Source: Actinopolymorpha singaporensis
GTDB taxonomy: Bacteria; Actinomycetota; Actinomycetes; Propionibacteriales; Actinopolymorphaceae
Direction of reading: 5' to 3'
NCBI RefSeq assembly: GCF_900104745.1
Contig: NZ_LT629732.1
Coordinates: 2,839,981-2,903,980 of the forward strand
Length of the DNA stretch: 64,000 bases
This document shows positions 7,130-27,222 of the stretch, one piece after another. The notes under the pieces are model-generated. The model had not been told where the DNA came from, did no database searches, and worked only from the letters and a program-made list of their open reading frames with translations. The translations under genes and the position numbers were made by a program. The stretch's first letter is position 1, and each line of letters opens with the position of its first letter.

Positions 7130-10100
7130 TCAGCTCGGGGTCACCGGGGCGGTGGGGGAGGAGGCTGGGCCGGTGCCGAGCAGGTTCGTGGCCGCGACGG
7201 TGAAGGTGTACGCGACACCGGCGGAAAGGCCGGGCACCGTCGTCTCGGTGACGTCCGCGGCGACGGTTGCCGGATCCAGCGCGGTGCCGTCGCGGTAGGG
7301 CGTCACGACGTACCCGGTCAGCGGAGCTCCGCCGTCGAACGCCGGCGGCCTCCACGTCACCGTGGCACTGCGTGCGTCCGCTGCCGCCGACACCTGTGTG
7401 GGCGCGTCCGGTGGCGAGGGCAGCGCGTACACCTCGAACTCCGCCAGCCCCACGTTGGGACCGCTCCCGCCCTCGACCTGGAAACGTACCCACCTGAAGG
7501 TCTTCGGGGCGAACGTCACCGTCGCGGCCGCGCCGTCCGGCGGGACGTCGCGCACCGCGACGGTGCTTCCGTCGTCGAAGGTCAGCGTCCCTCCGTGCAC
7601 GTCGTCGATGCCGGCCCGGTCGTGCAGGACGATCCGGTCCGCGGTGACCGCTCTCTCCCAGCTCAGCCGCACCCACGGGTTCTGTTCGCCTGCCGACGCC
7701 CAGTCACCCGCGTCGGGGCTGCCGACCACGCCGTCACGTACCTTGTCCGGCCCGTAGTTGTCGTTGTAGGAGGACGAGGCCGTCGCGGTCACCCCCGGCC
7801 AGCGGGCGGCGTTCCCGCGCAGCAGTCCCACGTCGAGCGCCAGTCGGATCCGTTTCGTCGCCCGCACGCCGGACCCGTCGGTGGCAGTGGCCGACACGAG
7901 CACGTCGCCGTCGCGGTCCCGGACGGTCAGCACGCCGTCGGCGTCGACCGAGGCCTTGTCGGTCGGCGGGCCGCCGGGCTCGGTGACGGCCCAGACGGCC
8001 TTGTGCAGCGAGCGTTCCGGGCTGAAGGTTGCGGTCAGCCGCACCGAGGAGTAGGGCTCGGCGATGACGTCCGGCCCGGCGATCTCGATGCGTCGCACGG
8101 GCAGGCACAGGCCGAGATCCTGGCCGTCAAGGGCGGCTTGCGCCGCGCCGGCGATCAGCGCGTGACCGGCGTCGTTGGGATGTACGCCGTCCGCCGCGAT
8201 GTGCCGCGACGCCGACCACGTGCCGCGTACGTCCACCGCGTGCGCGTTCGGGAACTCCCGCGCCACGTCAAGCACGACTTGCGCGTATGCGTCGGCGACC
8301 TCCTGGCTGCCCTTGTCGTACGGCGCGTACTGGTCCCAGGCGGTGGGAGCGATCCCGGGATCGGCCACCAACACCACCGGGACGGGCCGTCCGGTCTCCG
8401 CCGTGCGTGCGTGGGACACGATCGACCGCAGGTGGCTGCGATACTCGCTCAGCCGCTGGGGGTCGGATCCGTACAACCGGACGTCGTTGATGCCGGTCTC
8501 CACCACGACCACATCGGTGGGCCGGAGGTCCGGTGCCGCCAGCAGGAACTGCTCCTCGGTCTGGGCGGAGAGGCTGCTGGAGACGGCCCGGTTGGTCAAC
8601 GGGCGGCAGGTCTGCGCCGCCACGATCGCCGGCCAGGCCCGGTCCGGCCGGGACGCGCCCAGACCGGCGACGTAGGAGTGGCCGAAGGCCAGCACCCGCC
8701 CGGTCGTCTCCCGAGCAGCCGTCTCCCGGTCAGCCGTCTCCCGGACAGCCGGCTCCCGGCTCACCGACGCGACGGCCGTGCCGGCAGGGATCACGACCGG
8801 GTCGGTGCGGGCGGACGCGGGACCGGTGCCGACGACGTTCGTGGCCGCCACCGTGAACTCGTACGCCTGACCGGCGGCCAGGCCGGGCACGCGGGCGCTC
8901 TCCACTCCCGCCTCCACCCGCACCGGGTCCAGTGCGGTGCCGTCGCGGTAGGGCGTGACGACGTAACCGGTCAGCGGCGTGCCGCCGTCGAACGCGGGCG
9001 GCACCCACGAGACCGTGGCCGCGCCCTCCGTGCCCGCGGCGGGAGTGGCGGTCACGTCGAGCGGGACGGTCGGCACCGACGGCCGGGCGGAGACCTCGAA
9101 CTCGGCCAGGCCCACGTTGGGGCCGGATCCACCCTCGACCTGGAACCGCACCCAGGTGAACGTCCTTGCCGCGAAGTCCACCGCCAGCGGCTTCCCGTCG
9201 CCGGGCAGGTCACTGACCCGCACGGTGCTTCCGTCGCTGAAGCTCAACGTGCCGCCGTTCGCGTCGTCGACCCCGGGCCGGTCGTACAACGTGATCCGGT
9301 CGGCAAGGACAGGTTGCGCCCATGCCAGTTGCACCCAGGGGTTCTGTTCACCGGCGGAGGCCCACTCTCCGGAGCCCGCGCCGAATCCGTCGTGCACCCG
9401 GGCGGGACCGTAGTTCGCGTCGTACCGCGACGAGGCGGTTGCGGTGACGCCCGGCCACCGGGCGGCGTTGGCGCGGGCGAGCTCCGGGTCGAGTGCGATG
9501 GTCACGGCGGCGGTGGCGCTGACGTGGCCCTCGTCCGCCGCGGTGGCCCGGACGAGCAGGTCGCCGTCGCGGTGATTGACGGTGAGCAGACCGTCCTGGT
9601 CGATCTCGGCCTTGTCGGTGGGCGACCCGTCCGGTTCGGTGACCGCCCAGGTGGCTTCCTTCCGGGTGGTGTCGGCGGGGGTGAACTCAGCAGTGAACCG
9701 CACCGAGCCGTACGGCTGGGCCACCTCCCTGGGGCCGGCGATCTCGATACCCGTGGCAAGGACGGGCTCACCGCGTTCGGGTCCGGTGCCGACGAGGTTG
9801 CGGGCCGCCACGGTGAAGTCGTACGCCTTCGGGTCGGACAGTCCGGTCACCACCGCCTCGTTCGCGGTCTCGGGCACCTCCACGGTGTCGGTGACCTGCC
9901 CGCCGCGGTAGGCCCGCACGACGTAGCCGGTGATCGGCGCGCCGCCGTCGAAGGCCGGCGGCCGCCACGAGACGCTCGCCTGCGTTCCCGAGCGCTCGAC
10001 CGAGACGTCCCTCGGCGCGTCCGGCGCGGAGGGCACGGCGTACACCTCGATCTCGGACATGCCCGGGTTGAGCCCGGTGCCGCCCCGGATCTGGAAACGT

Positions 10101-13100
10101 ACCCAGGTGAACGTCTTCTGCTCGAACGTCACCGTCTTCGGCCCGCCACCGACGGGCAGGCCCGACACCGGGATGGTGCTGCCGTCGCTGAACGTCAGCG
10201 TGCCGGCATTGGCGTCGTCGTCGCCCGGCCGGTCGTAGAGAACGATCCGGTCCGCGCGGATCGGTTTGTCCCAGTCCAGCTGCACCCACGGCTCGCGCTC
10301 GCCGCGCGAGGCCCAGTCACCGCCGTCCTTGGAGCCGATCACGCCGTCGCGCACCTTGTCGGCCCGGTAGCCGTCGCTGTACTCCGACGACGCGGTCGCG
10401 GTCACTCCCGGCCACCGTGCCGCGTTGCCACGCAGCAGTCCGACGTCCAGGTCGAGCGTCACCTTCCTCCACGCGCGGATCGTGGGCCCGCTGTCGGAGT
10501 TCGTCGCGGTGACCAGCACCTGGCCGTCGCGGCGGTTGACCGTGAGCAGACCGTCCTGGTCGATCTCGGCCTTGTCGGTGGGTGAGCCGTCCAGTTCGGT
10601 CACCTTCCAGTACGTCCGCTGCCAGGTGGTGTTCTCGGGGGTGAACACCGCGTCGTAGCGCACCTTTCCGTAGGGCTCCCGGATGGAGTCCGGCCCCTCG
10701 ATCGCGATGCCGGTCGCGTAGGTCGGCCGCTTTCCCTGCGACGGTGACTCCGACGGGGGGAGCTTGCCCGTGCCCCACCGCTTGTCGGGAGTCGCCCCCA
10801 GCCAGAGCTCGAGCGTGCCGCCGTCGGCGAGTTGACTGTGCCGGAACCACGACGACGTGAGCAGGCGGTCGTCCAGCTTCGCCTGCTGGATGTAGGGATG
10901 GTCGGCGCTGTTGCCGTGGGTGAGGATCCGGAACCGCTTTCCCTTGTAGTACTTCTGGTTCAGCGTGATGGTGATCTCGTCGAACACCGGCGAGGTGATG
11001 TCGTACACCGGATCGGCGTGCCCGCCACCGGTCACCTCGAACAACCCCATCGCCATCAGGGCGCTGATCGCACCCATCTGACCCTGGTCCTCGTCGTGGT
11101 GGCCGTACCCGTCCGTGGTGGAGGTCGCGCCATACGTGTGTTCCTTCACCTGGCGCACCCAGTACTGCGTCAACCACGGCTTGCCGACGTAGTTGAACAG
11201 GTGCGCGACCTGCAGGCCTGGCTGGTTGCCGTAGCTCACGTAGCCCTGCCCGTAGACGCCGATGAAGTTCGCCGGGCGGGAGCGTTCGAACGCGTAGTTG
11301 AGTCGGTCGGCGTACGCGGTCTCCCCGCCCATCAGGTTGGCCAGGCCCATGACGTCGTGGGAGGTGAACCACGTCGCCTGCCAGGAGTTCGCCTCCACGA
11401 AGTCGCTCGGGCTCAACGGATCGAAGTCGGCGAGGAACGTGCCGTCGGCGTTCTTCGGCCGGATGAACCCGGTGGCGGCGTCGAACAGGTTGCGCCAGTT
11501 GCTGGAACGCTCCCGCAGGTAGGTGTAGGCGTCGGTGTCGTCCCACGCCTCGATGTCGTTCAGCCCGACACCCGGACCGGCCGACGGCCCCGAGCCGCCC
11601 ATGGCCTCGAACCGGACCCAGGACGCCTTCCGCCCACCGACGTCCACCCGAAGCGGCTCACCGTCGTCCGGCACGTCGGCGACGTCGAGGGAACTGCCGT
11701 CGCTGAACGTCAACCGCCCGGAGTTCACGTTCGCGTCCGGGTTCGCCCGGTCGCTCAGCACGATCGTGCGCAACGTCCGGGGCCGGTCCCAGCGCAGTTC
11801 GACCCACGGGTGCTGCTCGCCGGCCGACGCCCACTCGACGTTGCGCCCGTCCTTGCCGCCGGAGCGGATCGGGCGACCGTCGATCGCCCGTTCGGCCGCG
11901 TAGTCGGCGTCGGAGGCCTGCGTGGACGCGCGCACCTTCGCGTACTGTGCGACGTTCACGCCCTTCTCACCCAGCTCGCGGGCGAACTGCGCCAACGTCC
12001 AGTCCTGGAAGGCGTACTCCAGGGTCTGACCGGCCCCGCCGTTGAGCCCGGCACCGGACCGGTACGGGACGTATCCGCGGTCGAGGTAGCTGCGGATTCC
12101 GCCCGCACCGCTCCACCCGGAGTACTCCAGGGCACCCTTGTCGAACAGGCCGCCCACCGACTGGGCGTCCATCATCGCGCGGTAGGCGAGCTGGGGGTCG
12201 AAGTCGCGAATCCCCTTGTTCCACGCGCCGACGATGAACGACGTCACGGGTGAACCCGTCATGATCAGCGAGTCGTTGCCGGCGACGGGTCCGCGAGGGA
12301 GCAGCCCGCCGTCCTCGTACATCCGCAACTGCGACTTGACGAAGCTGCTGTAGATTTCCGGGTAGGCCAGGCCGAGGACGGAGTTGAGGTTCCACTGGGT
12401 GAGCCAGAGCGCGTCGTAGTTGTACATCGCGAAGTCCGGCCGGCCGTCGTCACCCAGCGGGATCTGCCTGACCGAGTTGTGGTTCCAGGTGTCGTCCATG
12501 TACTTGCCGTCGACGTCGCTGACGACGCTGCGCCCGCACAGTACGTGGAACAGGTCGGTGTAGAACTTGACCTGCTGCTGGTGGGTGCCGCCCCCGACGT
12601 CGATCCGGCCCAGCATGTCGTTCCAGTGCCGCTGGGAGGCGTTCTTCACCTCGTCGAACGACCAGCCCGGGAGCTCGGCCCGGAGGTTCTTCCGCGCACC
12701 GGCGGTGCCGGTCAGCGACAGCGCCACCTTCAGCTGCACCACGTCGCCCGCCGAGAGCTGGTTGTACCGGACGTACACACCCATGTTGTCGCCGGATAGC
12801 TCCTCGAGCGGAGCGCCGCCACGGGCCAGGCTGCCGTCCGCCCACCCCCGCATGGAGTCGAACGCCCGGTCGAAGGAGATCACGAAGAACAGCCGGGTGT
12901 CGTGCTCCGCGTAGGCGCCGCCGTGCTGGTCGACGTATCCCTCGATCTCGTGGTCGTTCACCTTGGTCACATGGGCGTCCTTCATCACCGCCTCGCCCAG
13001 CAGGCCGCCGAGGTTGACGATGATCTCGCTCTGCCCGGCCCGGCCGAACGTGTACCGGTGCATGCCCACCCGGTCGGTGACGGTGAGCTCGGCGTCCACG

Positions 13101-13672
13101 TCGTACCGGTCCAGACGGACCTTGTGGTAGCCGGGTTCGGCGACCTCGGTCGTGTCGTGTTCCACATGCGACTGCCAGCCGGTGTCACCCTCGGTCTTCG
13201 GCACGCTCGCACCCGAGGTCGGCATCACCTGGACACCGGAGAACTGCCAGTCGTGGATGTGGCTGAAGCCCTTGACCTCGTGCTCGGTGGTTCGGTAGCC
13301 GGTGCCGCCGCTGCTGTTCGTGCTGGTGTCCGGGCGCAGCTTCACGAAGCCGAACGGGTTGCTCGCGGACTGGAAGAAGAAGTAGCGGGCGATGTCGGCC
13401 TCGACCCACGGGTCGACCAGGCTCACGTAGTCGCGTTGGCCCGGCGCGGTCCGGGCGGCCGCCGCCTCGGTGGCGGGGACGCGGCTGGTCGCGGCGTGCG
13501 CGGACGTGGCGCCGGTGGGCGCGAGGTGCGCGGTCGCGGCCGTCGCGGTCGGGACGTGTGCGGCCGCGGAGCCGGCGATGGTGCCGAAGAGGAGGGCGAG
13601 CACGGTGCACACGGCGAGCAGGTGCCGACGCGGGGGAGTCGGCGTGAGGATCGAGGCGAGTGAGCGCGGCAT
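7130..13672 (-). CDS. Secreted GH92 alpha-mannosidase fused to SGNH esterase, with discoidin/Big/FnIII modules
   Basis: A 2,180-residue exported protein. Signal peptide about 1-38, then a Thr/Ala-rich stretch. GH92 N-terminal and catalytic parts run from about 80 to 975: SHIHDWQFSGVQVMP, GSPVTSFIVGAWNKGIRDFD, candidate general acid E760 in VEANSWQATWF, and acidic D860/D862 in HDEDQGQMGA. A discoidin (F5/8C, CBM32-like) domain at about 575-712 lies inside the catalytic region. Three modules follow, each Big-like, discoidin, FnIII: 987-1300, 1305-1622 and 1860-2178. Between the second and third sits an SGNH/GDSL esterase (1660-1858) with S1666, N1729, D1828 and H1831. GH92 enzymes are Ca-dependent exo-alpha-mannosidases; the esterase could deacetylate mannan. 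These functions are inferred from family. The start has a normal secretion leader. Confidence 0.92.
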   Translation of the reverse strand: MPRSLASILTPTPPRRHLLAVCTVLALLFGTIAGSAAAHVPTATAATAHLAPTGATSAHAATSRVPATEAAAARTAPGQRDYVSLVDPWVEADIARYFFFQSASNPFGFVKLRPDTSTNSSGGTGYRTTEHEVKGFSHIHDWQFSGVQVMPTSGASVPKTEGDTGWQSHVEHDTTEVAEPGYHKVRLDRYDVDAELTVTDRVGMHRYTFGRAGQSEIIVNLGGLLGEAVMKDAHVTKVNDHEIEGYVDQHGGAYAEHDTRLFFVISFDRAFDSMRGWADGSLARGGAPLEELSGDNMGVYVRYNQLSAGDVVQLKVALSLTGTAGARKNLRAELPGWSFDEVKNASQRHWNDMLGRIDVGGGTHQQQVKFYTDLFHVLCGRSVVSDVDGKYMDDTWNHNSVRQIPLGDDGRPDFAMYNYDALWLTQWNLNSVLGLAYPEIYSSFVKSQLRMYEDGGLLPRGPVAGNDSLIMTGSPVTSFIVGAWNKGIRDFDPQLAYRAMMDAQSVGGLFDKGALEYSGWSGAGGIRSYLDRGYVPYRSGAGLNGGAGQTLEYAFQDWTLAQFARELGEKGVNVAQYAKVRASTQASDADYAAERAIDGRPIRSGGKDGRNVEWASAGEQHPWVELRWDRPRTLRTIVLSDRANPDANVNSGRLTFSDGSSLDVADVPDDGEPLRVDVGGRKASWVRFEAMGGSGPSAGPGVGLNDIEAWDDTDAYTYLRERSSNWRNLFDAATGFIRPKNADGTFLADFDPLSPSDFVEANSWQATWFTSHDVMGLANLMGGETAYADRLNYAFERSRPANFIGVYGQGYVSYGNQPGLQVAHLFNYVGKPWLTQYWVRQVKEHTYGATSTTDGYGHHDEDQGQMGAISALMAMGLFEVTGGGHADPVYDITSPVFDEITITLNQKYYKGKRFRILTHGNSADHPYIQQAKLDDRLLTSSWFRHSQLADGGTLELWLGATPDKRWGTGKLPPSESPSQGKRPTYATGIAIEGPDSIREPYGKVRYDAVFTPENTTWQRTYWKVTELDGSPTDKAEIDQDGLLTVNRRDGQVLVTATNSDSGPTIRAWRKVTLDLDVGLLRGNAARWPGVTATASSEYSDGYRADKVRDGVIGSKDGGDWASRGEREPWVQLDWDKPIRADRIVLYDRPGDDDANAGTLTFSDGSTIPVSGLPVGGGPKTVTFEQKTFTWVRFQIRGGTGLNPGMSEIEVYAVPSAPDAPRDVSVERSGTQASVSWRPPAFDGGAPITGYVVRAYRGGQVTDTVEVPETANEAVVTGLSDPKAYDFTVAARNLVGTGPERGEPVLATGIEIAGPREVAQPYGSVRFTAEFTPADTTRKEATWAVTEPDGSPTDKAEIDQDGLLTVNHRDGDLLVRATAADEGHVSATAAVTIALDPELARANAARWPGVTATASSRYDANYGPARVHDGFGAGSGEWASAGEQNPWVQLAWAQPVLADRITLYDRPGVDDANGGTLSFSDGSTVRVSDLPGDGKPLAVDFAARTFTWVRFQVEGGSGPNVGLAEFEVSARPSVPTVPLDVTATPAAGTEGAATVSWVPPAFDGGTPLTGYVVTPYRDGTALDPVRVEAGVESARVPGLAAGQAYEFTVAATNVVGTGPASARTDPVVIPAGTAVASVSREPAVRETADRETAARETTGRVLAFGHSYVAGLGASRPDRAWPAIVAAQTCRPLTNRAVSSSLSAQTEEQFLLAAPDLRPTDVVVVETGINDVRLYGSDPQRLSEYRSHLRSIVSHARTAETGRPVPVVLVADPGIAPTAWDQYAPYDKGSQEVADAYAQVVLDVAREFPNAHAVDVRGTWSASRHIAADGVHPNDAGHALIAGAAQAALDGQDLGLCLPVRRIEIAGPDVIAEPYSSVRLTATFSPERSLHKAVWAVTEPGGPPTDKASVDADGVLTVRDRDGDVLVSATATDGSGVRATKRIRLALDVGLLRGNAARWPGVTATASSSYNDNYGPDKVRDGVVGSPDAGDWASAGEQNPWVRLSWERAVTADRIVLHDRAGIDDVHGGTLTFDDGSTVAVRDVPPDGAAATVTFAPKTFRWVRFQVEGGSGPNVGLAEFEVYALPSPPDAPTQVSAAADARSATVTWRPPAFDGGAPLTGYVVTPYRDGTALDPATVAADVTETTVPGLSAGVAYTFTVAATNLLGTGPASSPTAPVTPS
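8706..8765 (-). repeat. Four 15-bp tandem units encoding the linker before the esterase
   Basis: Units of 15 bases (gtctcccggtcagcc and close variants) at 8706, 8721, 8736 and 8751 encode an Arg-Glu-Thr-rich linker at about residues 1636-1658 of the GH92 protein, joining the second FnIII module to the SGNH domain. The in-frame period suggests growth by slippage. Confidence 0.7.
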
Positions 13673-24915: not shown

Positions 24916-25473
24916 TCACAGCCTCGCCACGAAACCGTCCACCGTCGCCACCACCTCGCGAAGGATGTCGGCCGAATTGACCGGATCGGCCTTGGTTTCC
25001 AGACCGTGGTCGGCACCGGGGATCTCCAGCACCTGCGCCTTCGTGGAGCGGGCGAGGTCGCCGTTCCAGGTCGGGTCGCCGGTGCCGCCGACCAGCAGGG
25101 TCGGCGCCGTGGTCGCGGTCAGGGCTCCGGTCACGTGCCGCTCCCCGCACAAAGGGGTCAGCCAGATCGCCGGGAGGTTCCGTTCGACCGCGACCGGAGC
25201 GGCGAACGTACCGAGCGACTTGCCCACCAGCAGCAGGCGTTCGGCCTTCTCCTGGTCCAGCGCCGCGACCGCCTGGTCGCACACCCAGCCGGACGCCGCC
25301 GCGCGGTCGGACAGTGCGCGGGGCTCCCACCACACCTCCTGCACCGTCCACCCCCGGGCGAGCAGCACCGCGCGGGCGAAGTGCAGCAGCGGGCGGGCCG
25401 GCGTGTAGTACGCGCCGGGCAGAACGATCGCGACCCGGGCGGGGTCGGCCTCGAACCGGTTCTGATCAGCCAT
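24916..25473 (-). CDS. Small alpha/beta hydrolase
   Basis: A 185-residue cytosolic alpha/beta-hydrolase-fold protein. The nucleophile elbow is LLLVGKSLGTFAAP (Ser within GKSLG), the acid is probably Asp in GGTGDPTW, and the base is His in PGADHGLE. No lid domain is present. ATG at 25473 starts the recognisable domain; an earlier in-frame start adds 15 basic residues without support. It lies 31 bases upstream of the pentapeptide lipoprotein gene on the same strand. The substrate is unknown. Confidence 0.82.
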   Translation of the reverse strand: MADQNRFEADPARVAIVLPGAYYTPARPLLHFARAVLLARGWTVQEVWWEPRALSDRAAASGWVCDQAVAALDQEKAERLLLVGKSLGTFAAPVAVERNLPAIWLTPLCGERHVTGALTATTAPTLLVGGTGDPTWNGDLARSTKAQVLEIPGADHGLETKADPVNSADILREVVATVDGFVARL

Positions 25474-25632
25474 GCCCCATTGTCGCCATCGGCGGTGCGG
25501 GTGTGCTCGCCCTCGCACTGGAGAGCGTGGCGTATCCGAGTCCGGCCACTTGGCGGCGATGATCTTGTGGGCACACGCGGACCGCGCCTAGGTTCGCCGG
25601 GACTGTCCGAGTCCTGCACACAGGAGGCACTC

Positions 25633-27222
25633 GTGTCCGAAACACCGTCCCGGTCCTCGCACCTGCTGCCGCGGGTGCTGGCAGCGGCCGGCACGCTCGC
25701 GCTCGGGTTCGGTGTCCTGACCGGCACCGCGGCGGCGGCACCGCAGCCGGTCCGCGGCACACCCGCGCACCCGGCGGCGGTGGCGGCCAAGCCCGCCACA
25801 GCAGCGAAACCTGCCGAGCCCGCCACCGCGACCCTCGCCGCCCCGGTCTGCGGGACGCTGTGCGACGGTGCTCCGGTGAGCGACGCGCGCGAAGACCGGT
25901 TGGCCGACGGAGCGACCATCTACGGACGCTCGATCGAGCTGCACATGTCCGACCTGGACGCGATGGGCTGGGCGAGCATCAACAACGGCGACCCCACCGA
26001 CGAGGTGTGGCTGGACCGGTCCTACGACGGCGGAAAGACGGTCGCCGACACCAAGCTCGGCGGCGCGACCATCCCCGCGGGCAAGCGCGGCACCACCACC
26101 GCGATGTTCAACGTGAACGACCCGGCCAACCAGCGCACCGGCGTACTCCGCGCCTGCGGCAAGGCCGGCAACCGCGACGACGTGCGGTGCACCGCCTGGA
26201 CCGGCGTGGAACGCCCGAACCTCGAAGGGACACCCACCAAGCGTGCGGTGCAGGCACTGGTCAAGCTGTACAACCGGGACACCGGGCTGTGGAAGACCAC
26301 CGGCTGGTGGAACTCCGCGAACGCGCTGACCGCCGTCCTCGACTACCAGCTGGCCACCGGCGACCGGTCCTACGACTGGATCATCGCCAACACCTACGAC
26401 AAGAACCTGCACGCCCAGGGCGGCAACTTCACCAACGACTACGTCGACGACACCGGCTGGTGGGCACTTGCCTGGATCAGGGCGTACGACCTGACCGGAC
26501 AGGAGCGCTACCTGCAGACGGCGAAGTACGACGTCGACTACATGTGGAGCACCCGCGACGACGTCTGCGGCGGCGGCGTGGTGTGGAACGTCAACCAGCG
26601 TTACAAGAACGCCGTCACCAACGAACTGTTCATCAAGGCCGCGGCGAGTCTGCACAACCGCATCCCCGGGGACAGCGAGTACCTCGACCGGGCGCTGAAC
26701 ATCTGGCAGTGGTTCCGGGCCAGCGGGATGATCAACGCGGACAACCTGATCAACGACGGCCTGAACGGTACGACCTGCCAGAACAACGGCCAGACGACCT
26801 GGACCTACAACCAGGGCATCGTCCTCGGGGCGCTGACCGAGCTGGCCGCGGCGACGAAGGACAACTCCTACCTCACCCAGGCGCGTGAGCTGGCCGACGC
26901 CTCGACCGGCAGCGAGTACCTCAACCCGAACGGCGTGCTGACCGAGCCGTGCGAGCCGAACGGTTGCGGCGCGGACGGGCCGACGTTCAAGGGCGTCTAC
27001 GTCCGCAACCTCGGCGAGCTGAACGCGGTGCTGCGCGAGCGGCCGTACCAGCGTTACCTGCAACGGCAGGCGACCGTGTCGTACCTGCGTGACCGGAACC
27101 GCTTCGACCAGTACGGCGTGCACTGGGCCGGGCCGATCGAGGCGATCAGCGCGGCCACCCAGCAGAGCGCGACGGAGGCGCAGATCGCGCCGCTGTGGGG
27201 CCGCGGTCCCAGCCGGGGCTGA
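25633..27222 (+). CDS. Secreted GH76-family alpha-1,6-mannanase-like glycosidase
   Basis: A 529-residue exported protein. The signal peptide covers about residues 1-36; an Ala/Pro/Lys-rich linker and a Cys-containing beta-rich region (about 70-190) come before the (alpha/alpha)6 GH76 barrel (about 200-515). The family's adjacent catalytic aspartates appear as D272-D273 in NDYVDDTGWWALAW, and TWTYNQGIVLGAL and FKGVYVRNL are further family motifs. GH76 enzymes cut alpha-1,6-mannose backbones of fungal mannan or related glycans. GTG at 25633 has GGAGG five bases upstream. Together with the GH92 protein it suggests alpha-mannan degradation. Confidence 0.87.
   Translation: MSETPSRSSHLLPRVLAAAGTLALGFGVLTGTAAAAPQPVRGTPAHPAAVAAKPATAAKPAEPATATLAAPVCGTLCDGAPVSDAREDRLADGATIYGRSIELHMSDLDAMGWASINNGDPTDEVWLDRSYDGGKTVADTKLGGATIPAGKRGTTTAMFNVNDPANQRTGVLRACGKAGNRDDVRCTAWTGVERPNLEGTPTKRAVQALVKLYNRDTGLWKTTGWWNSANALTAVLDYQLATGDRSYDWIIANTYDKNLHAQGGNFTNDYVDDTGWWALAWIRAYDLTGQERYLQTAKYDVDYMWSTRDDVCGGGVVWNVNQRYKNAVTNELFIKAAASLHNRIPGDSEYLDRALNIWQWFRASGMINADNLINDGLNGTTCQNNGQTTWTYNQGIVLGALTELAAATKDNSYLTQARELADASTGSEYLNPNGVLTEPCEPNGCGADGPTFKGVYVRNLGELNAVLRERPYQRYLQRQATVSYLRDRNRFDQYGVHWAGPIEAISAATQQSATEAQIAPLWGRGPSRG

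Follow-up and report, generated by a model that had tools for sequence, protein, structure and literature searches.

A secreted GH92–SGNH protein of Actinopolymorpha singaporensis as a candidate fusion of an exo-alpha-mannosidase and an esterase

Why would a single secreted protein carry both an exo-acting alpha-mannosidase and an esterase-like hydrolase, and what glycan could call for the pair? The question is raised by a gene in a 64,000-nucleotide stretch of DNA from the soil bacterium Actinopolymorpha singaporensis (genome G000; assembly GCF_900104745.1, contig NZ_LT629732.1, positions 2,839,981 to 2,903,980), referred to here as the window. By the list of open reading frames (ORFs) and their translation, a single minus-strand ORF at window positions 7130–13672 encodes 2180 residues in the order signal peptide, GH92 (with an F5/8C domain inside), module 1, module 2, linker, SGNH hydrolase, and module 3. 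The two-enzyme protein is real and conserved, the GH92–SGNH combination is rare in the samples examined, and the function is plausible. With moderate confidence, it is proposed to be a secreted two-enzyme fusion in which the SGNH half would deacylate a glycan with terminal alpha-mannose, the GH92 half would then release the mannose, and the modules would tether the protein.

Two catalytic domains in one reading frame

A sequence-only reading of this DNA had placed GH92, discoidin modules, and SGNH in one chain, and the Pfam matches along the single ORF and its repetition in a second genome bear this out. Six Actinopolymorpha genomes were compared, and one of them, G005, harbors the same fused ORF (2203 residues, 87–89% identical to the window protein) between flanking genes common to both genomes at 88–98% identity. 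The same ORF and flanks in G005 rule out an assembly accident in one genome. The chain begins with what is, by inspection, a Sec-type signal peptide (about residues 1–38; 13559–13672, on the minus strand like all features of the gene), having a charged start, the hydrophobic core LAVCTVLALLFGTI, an Ala-rich end, and a hydropathy peak of 2.5.

The GH92 half comprises an N-terminal domain (PF17678, residues 86–319; 12716–13417) and a catalytic domain that PF07971 matches in two stretches, set by alignment with GH92 enzymes of known structure at residues 320–572 (11957–12715, approximate borders) and 716–983 (10724–11527). The matches reach 180.8 bits for GH92N (cut-off 34.5), 435.7 bits for GH92 (cut-off 24.6), and 411.9 bits for TIGR01180 (cut-off 249.55), and 6f8z scores best among PDB entries (E 8e-78). 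E760 aligns with Glu533, the general acid of BT3990, and D862, within the DED triplet at 860–862, with the base Asp644 (roles from PMC12858847 and PMC10167667; BT3990 numbers are those of chain 2wvx plus 19). The DED triplet is frequent in the alpha-1,2-mannosidase subgroup. However, the window GH92 has Asp-Trp where that subgroup has a Pro-Trp motif, and the alignment with known structures shows a gap at the place of the His–Glu pair of the 580-loop; PMC12858847 links the pair and the loop to alpha-1,2 specificity. Membership in the subgroup is thus unsupported, and the GH92 half is expected to be an active exo-alpha-mannosidase of unassigned linkage preference.

The catalytic domain is interrupted by an F5/8C (DUF7402) domain of about 140 residues (573–715; 11528–11956, approximate borders), recognized by profile, alignment, and model. 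The insert occurs in 5/5 Actinopolymorphaceae rows and in 0/9 others of a 14-row alignment. In a structure model of fair quality (predicted local distance difference test, pLDDT, 74.5), it forms a beta-rich block between two helices.

The SGNH/GDSL hydrolase occupies residues 1656–1858 (8099–8707) and matches Lipase_GDSL_2 (PF13472, residues 1662–1839) at E 5e-22, with 79.6 bits against a cut-off of 32.9. Its motifs GHSY (1664–1667), GINDV (1727–1731), and DGVHP (1828–1832) provide S1666, N1729, D1828, and H1831, confirming the three catalytic residues named in the sequence-only reading and adding the asparagine. That reading had named loss of these residues in relatives as evidence against it; the Ser of block I, the Asn of block III, and the Asp and His of block V are invariant in 8/8 aligned SGNHs. 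The secreted chain it envisaged is supported by the signal peptide, the intact GH92 acid and base, the SGNH Ser, Asp, and His, and the four discoidin domains. At block II, Ser1699 takes the place of the usual glycine. The claim is therefore for a PF13472 domain with a block II exception, not for the full S-G-N-H set. The glycine is kept in G005, in Microlunatus speluncae, and in three genomes of the same order (f3/g5), which are presumably Kribbella.

The AlphaFold2 model of the SGNH part (pLDDT 95) resembles SGNH esterases, including carbohydrate acetylesterases (best Foldseek E 2.6e-9; best VIA Z 21.6). A phmmer comparison of this part with PDB sequences gives no match at E 0.01, and among NCBIfam models none comes near its cut-off. 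As modeled, the fold points to no single substrate.

Besides the insert, three modules follow the GH92 part: module 1 (Big-like, F5/8C, FN3; residues 984–1303, 9764–10723), module 2 (Big_2, F5/8C, FN3; residues 1304–1628, 8789–9763), and module 3 (Big-like, F5/8C, FN3; residues 1859–2180, 7133–8098). The first two are delimited by DNA repeats, Pfam, and protein comparison, and the third by its place within a separate SGNH gene in genomes G001 and G003. Pfam reports DUF7402 in four stretches with F5_F8_type_C overlapping it, fn3 three times, and one Big_2, which supports the discoidin/CBM32-like assignment. Four discoidin domains had been counted from the letters alone; four are present, but one of them is the insert inside the catalytic domain. 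The three modules had likewise been called near-identical, and DNA repeats of 61–88% identity do outline them, but as protein they are only 57.8–64.4% identical among themselves. Between module 2 and the SGNH domain lies a linker rich in R, E, T, and A (residues 1629–1655; 8708–8788); in G001 and G003, this place is taken up by a stop codon and the leader peptide of the second gene.

Relatives in the genus and origin by fusion

How the SGNH domain came to lie between modules 2 and 3 is addressed by two further Actinopolymorpha genomes. In G001, the GH92 ORF ends after module 2, and 36 bases on a second ORF of 573 residues begins, encoding its own signal-peptide-like leader, the SGNH domain, and module 3. 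In G003 (Actinopolymorpha pittospori DSM 45354, NZ_JADBEM010000001.1), the SGNH ORF of 593 residues has a hydrophobic leader and a four-base overlap with the stop of the GH92 gene. The separate SGNH gene thus includes module 3 in both genomes and lies directly downstream of GH92. This excludes insertion of the SGNH domain into a three-module mannosidase, the "splicing" that had been suggested for the window protein. Because module 3 travels with the SGNH gene, it belongs to the esterase half. By this comparison, the best reading of the window protein, and of its counterpart in G005, is that two neighboring secreted genes have fused. One would have encoded a GH92 exo-alpha-mannosidase bearing two Big-F5/8C-FN3 modules and a discoidin insert, and the other an SGNH esterase and a single module of this kind.

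Other genomes of the family hold this GH92 with two modules (G007) and with one module (G006), so that likely steps, from one module to two, then to an adjacent esterase gene, and then to a fusion, are on display within a single family. The GH92 gene would first have acquired modules, an SGNH gene carrying its own module would have arrived downstream, and the ancestor of the window and G005 genes would have lost the stop codon and the second leader, which turned into the linker. The direction from separate to fused is the simplest order. The reverse, a fused gene splitting, is less likely because a new leader peptide would be needed. In the module tree, module 2 groups by position with a starred node; module 1 does likewise but at 59/9, owing to G006, and the module 3 group reaches 36/52, support too low to place its origin. 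Genome searches of G002 and G004 yielded no more than a distantly related GH92 and a weak match for SGNH.

The GH92 gene of A. pittospori (L031, 3507–8211) is broken over three reading frames, and its SGNH gene is open. The split frame reflects either decay or sequencing error.

Bacteroidota counterparts, the substrate, and rival explanations

Is the combination confined to this locus? GH92 is found at E 1e-20 in 31 of 396 Actinomycetota genomes sampled, the window genome included. The Pfam scan covered 22 proteins, namely the 20 longest of the 42 GH92 rows outside G000, the window protein, and L097, another protein from the genus; it left aside 22 shorter frames (at most 960 residues) and the second GH92 of the window genome (L036). 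A GDSL domain occurs in 1/22 of the scanned proteins, that of the window. In a Bacteroidota sample (the phylum of a Chitinophagia metagenome-assembled genome, MAG), GH92 is present in at least 74 of 198 genomes, and 2 of 20 long frames scanned with Pfam, among the matches listed, carry GH92 and a C-terminal SGNH/GDSL domain in one chain (L132 and L133). The combination is therefore not unique to the window. Among 15 more Bacteroidota GH92 proteins (L141–L155), BLASTP gave 0/15 matches to the SGNH of L132/L133, a search that detects that SGNH type only. The sequence-only reading knew of no description of this exact combination. A fused GH92–SGNH/GDSL protein was indeed not found described in the full-text searches pairing GH92 with SGNH or GDSL, with subscription papers mostly outside the search, but the combination itself exists in L132 and L133.

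Outside its own family, the window GH92 has its closest matches, among the sequences compared, in L132, L133, and L134, the first two being 39% identical to it over about 790 residues. A GH92 tree of 50 rows joins L131–L134 and five Actinopolymorphaceae rows in one starred clade of nine (100/100); the tree omits the partial sequences L097 and L115, as well as L108, L109, L111, L114, L119, L141–L151, and most loci of the wider search. In the SGNH tree, weakened by long branches, the window SGNH falls with the f3/g5 and Microlunatus proteins (99/97), and those of L132/L133 with Granulicella and a Chitinophagia MAG (88/89, below the level of a star). Since the SGNHs come from different branches, the fusions in Actinopolymorphaceae and Bacteroidota look independent and convergent.

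SGNH relatives from the same order (L032, 3604–7137; L033, 4063–5990) precede an MGH1-like glycosidase, which in L032 is followed by the sugar-binding protein of a transporter. A further Bacteroidota chain, L120 1262–4798 (+), joins two mannosidase families, GH92 and GH47.

The L132 locus includes SusC/SusD-like genes, GntR, an MFS transporter, a ROK kinase, and a sub-threshold match to phosphomannose isomerase (17.8 bits against a cut-off of 22), a gene content that fits mannose use, as expected. DUF4185 lies directly after both Bacteroidota GH92–SGNH genes (L140, 4485–5726, and L137, 18050–19255; 43.7 and 38.8 bits against a cut-off of 39.5), and 1/3 of the DUF4185 matches neighbouring L132/L133 is above the cut-off. 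DUF4185 is the family of the GH183 endo-D-arabinanases in PMC10115798. The words "mannosidase" and "esterase" are absent from the main text of both D-arabinan papers compared. As a hint at a D-arabinan substrate, DUF4185 is a weak lead.

Which substrate would unite the two activities? Under the proposed function, the four discoidin domains with their FN3 and Big spacers would tether the protein to a glycan and set the distance between its two catalytic domains, the SGNH half would take an O-acyl group, probably acetyl, off a glycan with terminal alpha-mannose, and the Ca-dependent GH92 half would then free the exposed mannose. Likely independent fusion in two phyla suggests that the two activities form a functional pair, and the second joining, in Bacteroidota, suggests a shared acylated, mannose-containing substrate. 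It also raises the question of whether acylated alpha-mannosides are closed to GH92 enzymes without a deacylase. Acetylated mannan is a reasonable guess. A wider version is tentative and somewhat doubtful: a hitherto unrecognized GH92 subfamily of Actinopolymorphaceae and a few Bacteroidota would be specialized for O-acylated alpha-mannosides and, through independent fusions in two phyla, would have acquired a dedicated SGNH deacylase on two or more occasions. If true, the proposal would indicate an overlooked substrate and offer a ready two-enzyme reagent for acylated alpha-mannosides.

Several observations weigh against the proposed deacylation. SGNH folds act on many acyl esters and include transferases; the block II glycine is replaced by Ser in the window protein, G001, and G003 (8-row alignment); G006 and G007, which hold orthologous GH92, give no SGNH match; the same-clade L131 and L134 have no fused GDSL by Pfam, and two home-made profiles detect no SGNH in the 20-kb loci around them; and GH76 and PL8 genes are present in 6/6 genus genomes, locus present or not. 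The breadth of the fold and the SGNH-free loci of L131 and L134 would also suit an SGNH half that cuts another bond in the same material, such as acyl groups of a neighbouring polysaccharide or lipid, with the fusion merely co-locating two enzymes at the surface, as would the position of the distant relatives L032 and L033 beside an MGH1-like glycosidase rather than GH92. This is unlikely, though to be taken seriously; gene adjacency in G001/G003, the single ORF in G000/G005, and the Bacteroidota GH92–SGNH chains fit a shared substrate better.

Two other accounts deny the SGNH half a role as an esterase or any selected role at all, and both are improbable. It could be an acyltransferase, or else a binding domain that has decayed, as the block II Ser recalls SpOatA, an SGNH-superfamily member in the review PMC9487903, in which Ser at this position accompanies an altered oxyanion hole and acetyltransferase function. 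Yet the glycine persists in G005 and four outgroup SGNHs, S, N, D, and H are all retained, and in a Streptomyces rimosus SGNH lipase Gly54Ala cost about 10–40% of activity, depending on the substrate (PMC10779480). Alternatively, the fused ORF could stem from chance loss of a stop codon, with the SGNH half a passenger; it is found in two related genomes only, and the linker evolves freely. The ratio of nonsynonymous to synonymous substitution rates (dN/dS) between the window and G005 speaks to both accounts: 1.13 in the linker (27 codons), but 0.24 in SGNH, 0.11 in GH92, and 0.23 in module 3. Purifying selection acts on the SGNH part, both halves remain open and constrained, and Bacteroidota also have GH92–SGNH chains, all of which favors the proposed two-enzyme function over a passenger domain.

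Elsewhere, the window holds a gene for a GH76 protein (endo-alpha-1,6-mannanase family; 738 residues) at 25006–27222 (+). It and the GH92 gene lie about 11 kb apart, and G005 has a GH76 match at a similar distance of about 11 kb from its own GH92 gene. Because every genus genome has GH76 and PL8 regardless of the locus, they do not name the substrate; the window GH76 and the genus PL8 genes are context, not proof.

Comparison with known systems

A literature search for acetylated alpha-mannan, or for GH92 tied to SGNH, GDSL, or an esterase, gave no result. A published precedent is a xanthan cluster of B. intestinalis, in which GH92 occurs alongside a carbohydrate esterase; acetylation is frequent on the inner mannose of xanthan (PMC12827396). 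GH92, SGNH, and esterase appear as separate genes in PMC10434189, the one paper found with all three. In PMC10167667, most characterized GH92 mannosidases are described as single catalytic domains, and the literature searches showed none with a fused esterase.

Est24 (5hoe), Axe2 (4oap), and CEX (6hfz, titled "active on acetylated mannans") are carbohydrate acetylesterases that share the SGNH fold. They are, however, separate enzymes, 18–24% identical to the window SGNH in structural alignments. CEX acts on plant-type beta-mannan.

L132 (G750) and L133 (G734) are like the window protein in having GH92 and a C-terminal SGNH in one chain and in belonging to the same GH92 clade. In contrast, their SGNH is of another branch (GDSI motif), their phylum differs, and they have no F5/8C, Big, or FN3 Pfam match at E 1e-4.

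BT3990 (Bacteroides thetaiotaomicron, PDB 2wvx) and 6f8z are GH92 enzymes like the window protein, with E533 and D644 matching E760 and D862. BT3990 is treated in PMC10167667 as a catalytic core only, in contrast to the multi-domain window protein, and the window GH92 lacks the His–Glu pair and 580-loop associated with alpha-1,2 specificity in PMC12858847. NnGH92 (Neobacillus novalis, PDB 7nsn) is a multi-domain alpha-1,2-mannosidase with two CBM32 domains (PMC10167667). The two proteins have in common a GH92 core, F5/8C-type (CBM32) domains, and a preserved acid and base. By contrast, NnGH92 has no esterase, its CBM32 domains lie outside the catalytic domain, and it ends in a four-helix bundle, whereas the window protein ends in Big/FN3 modules.

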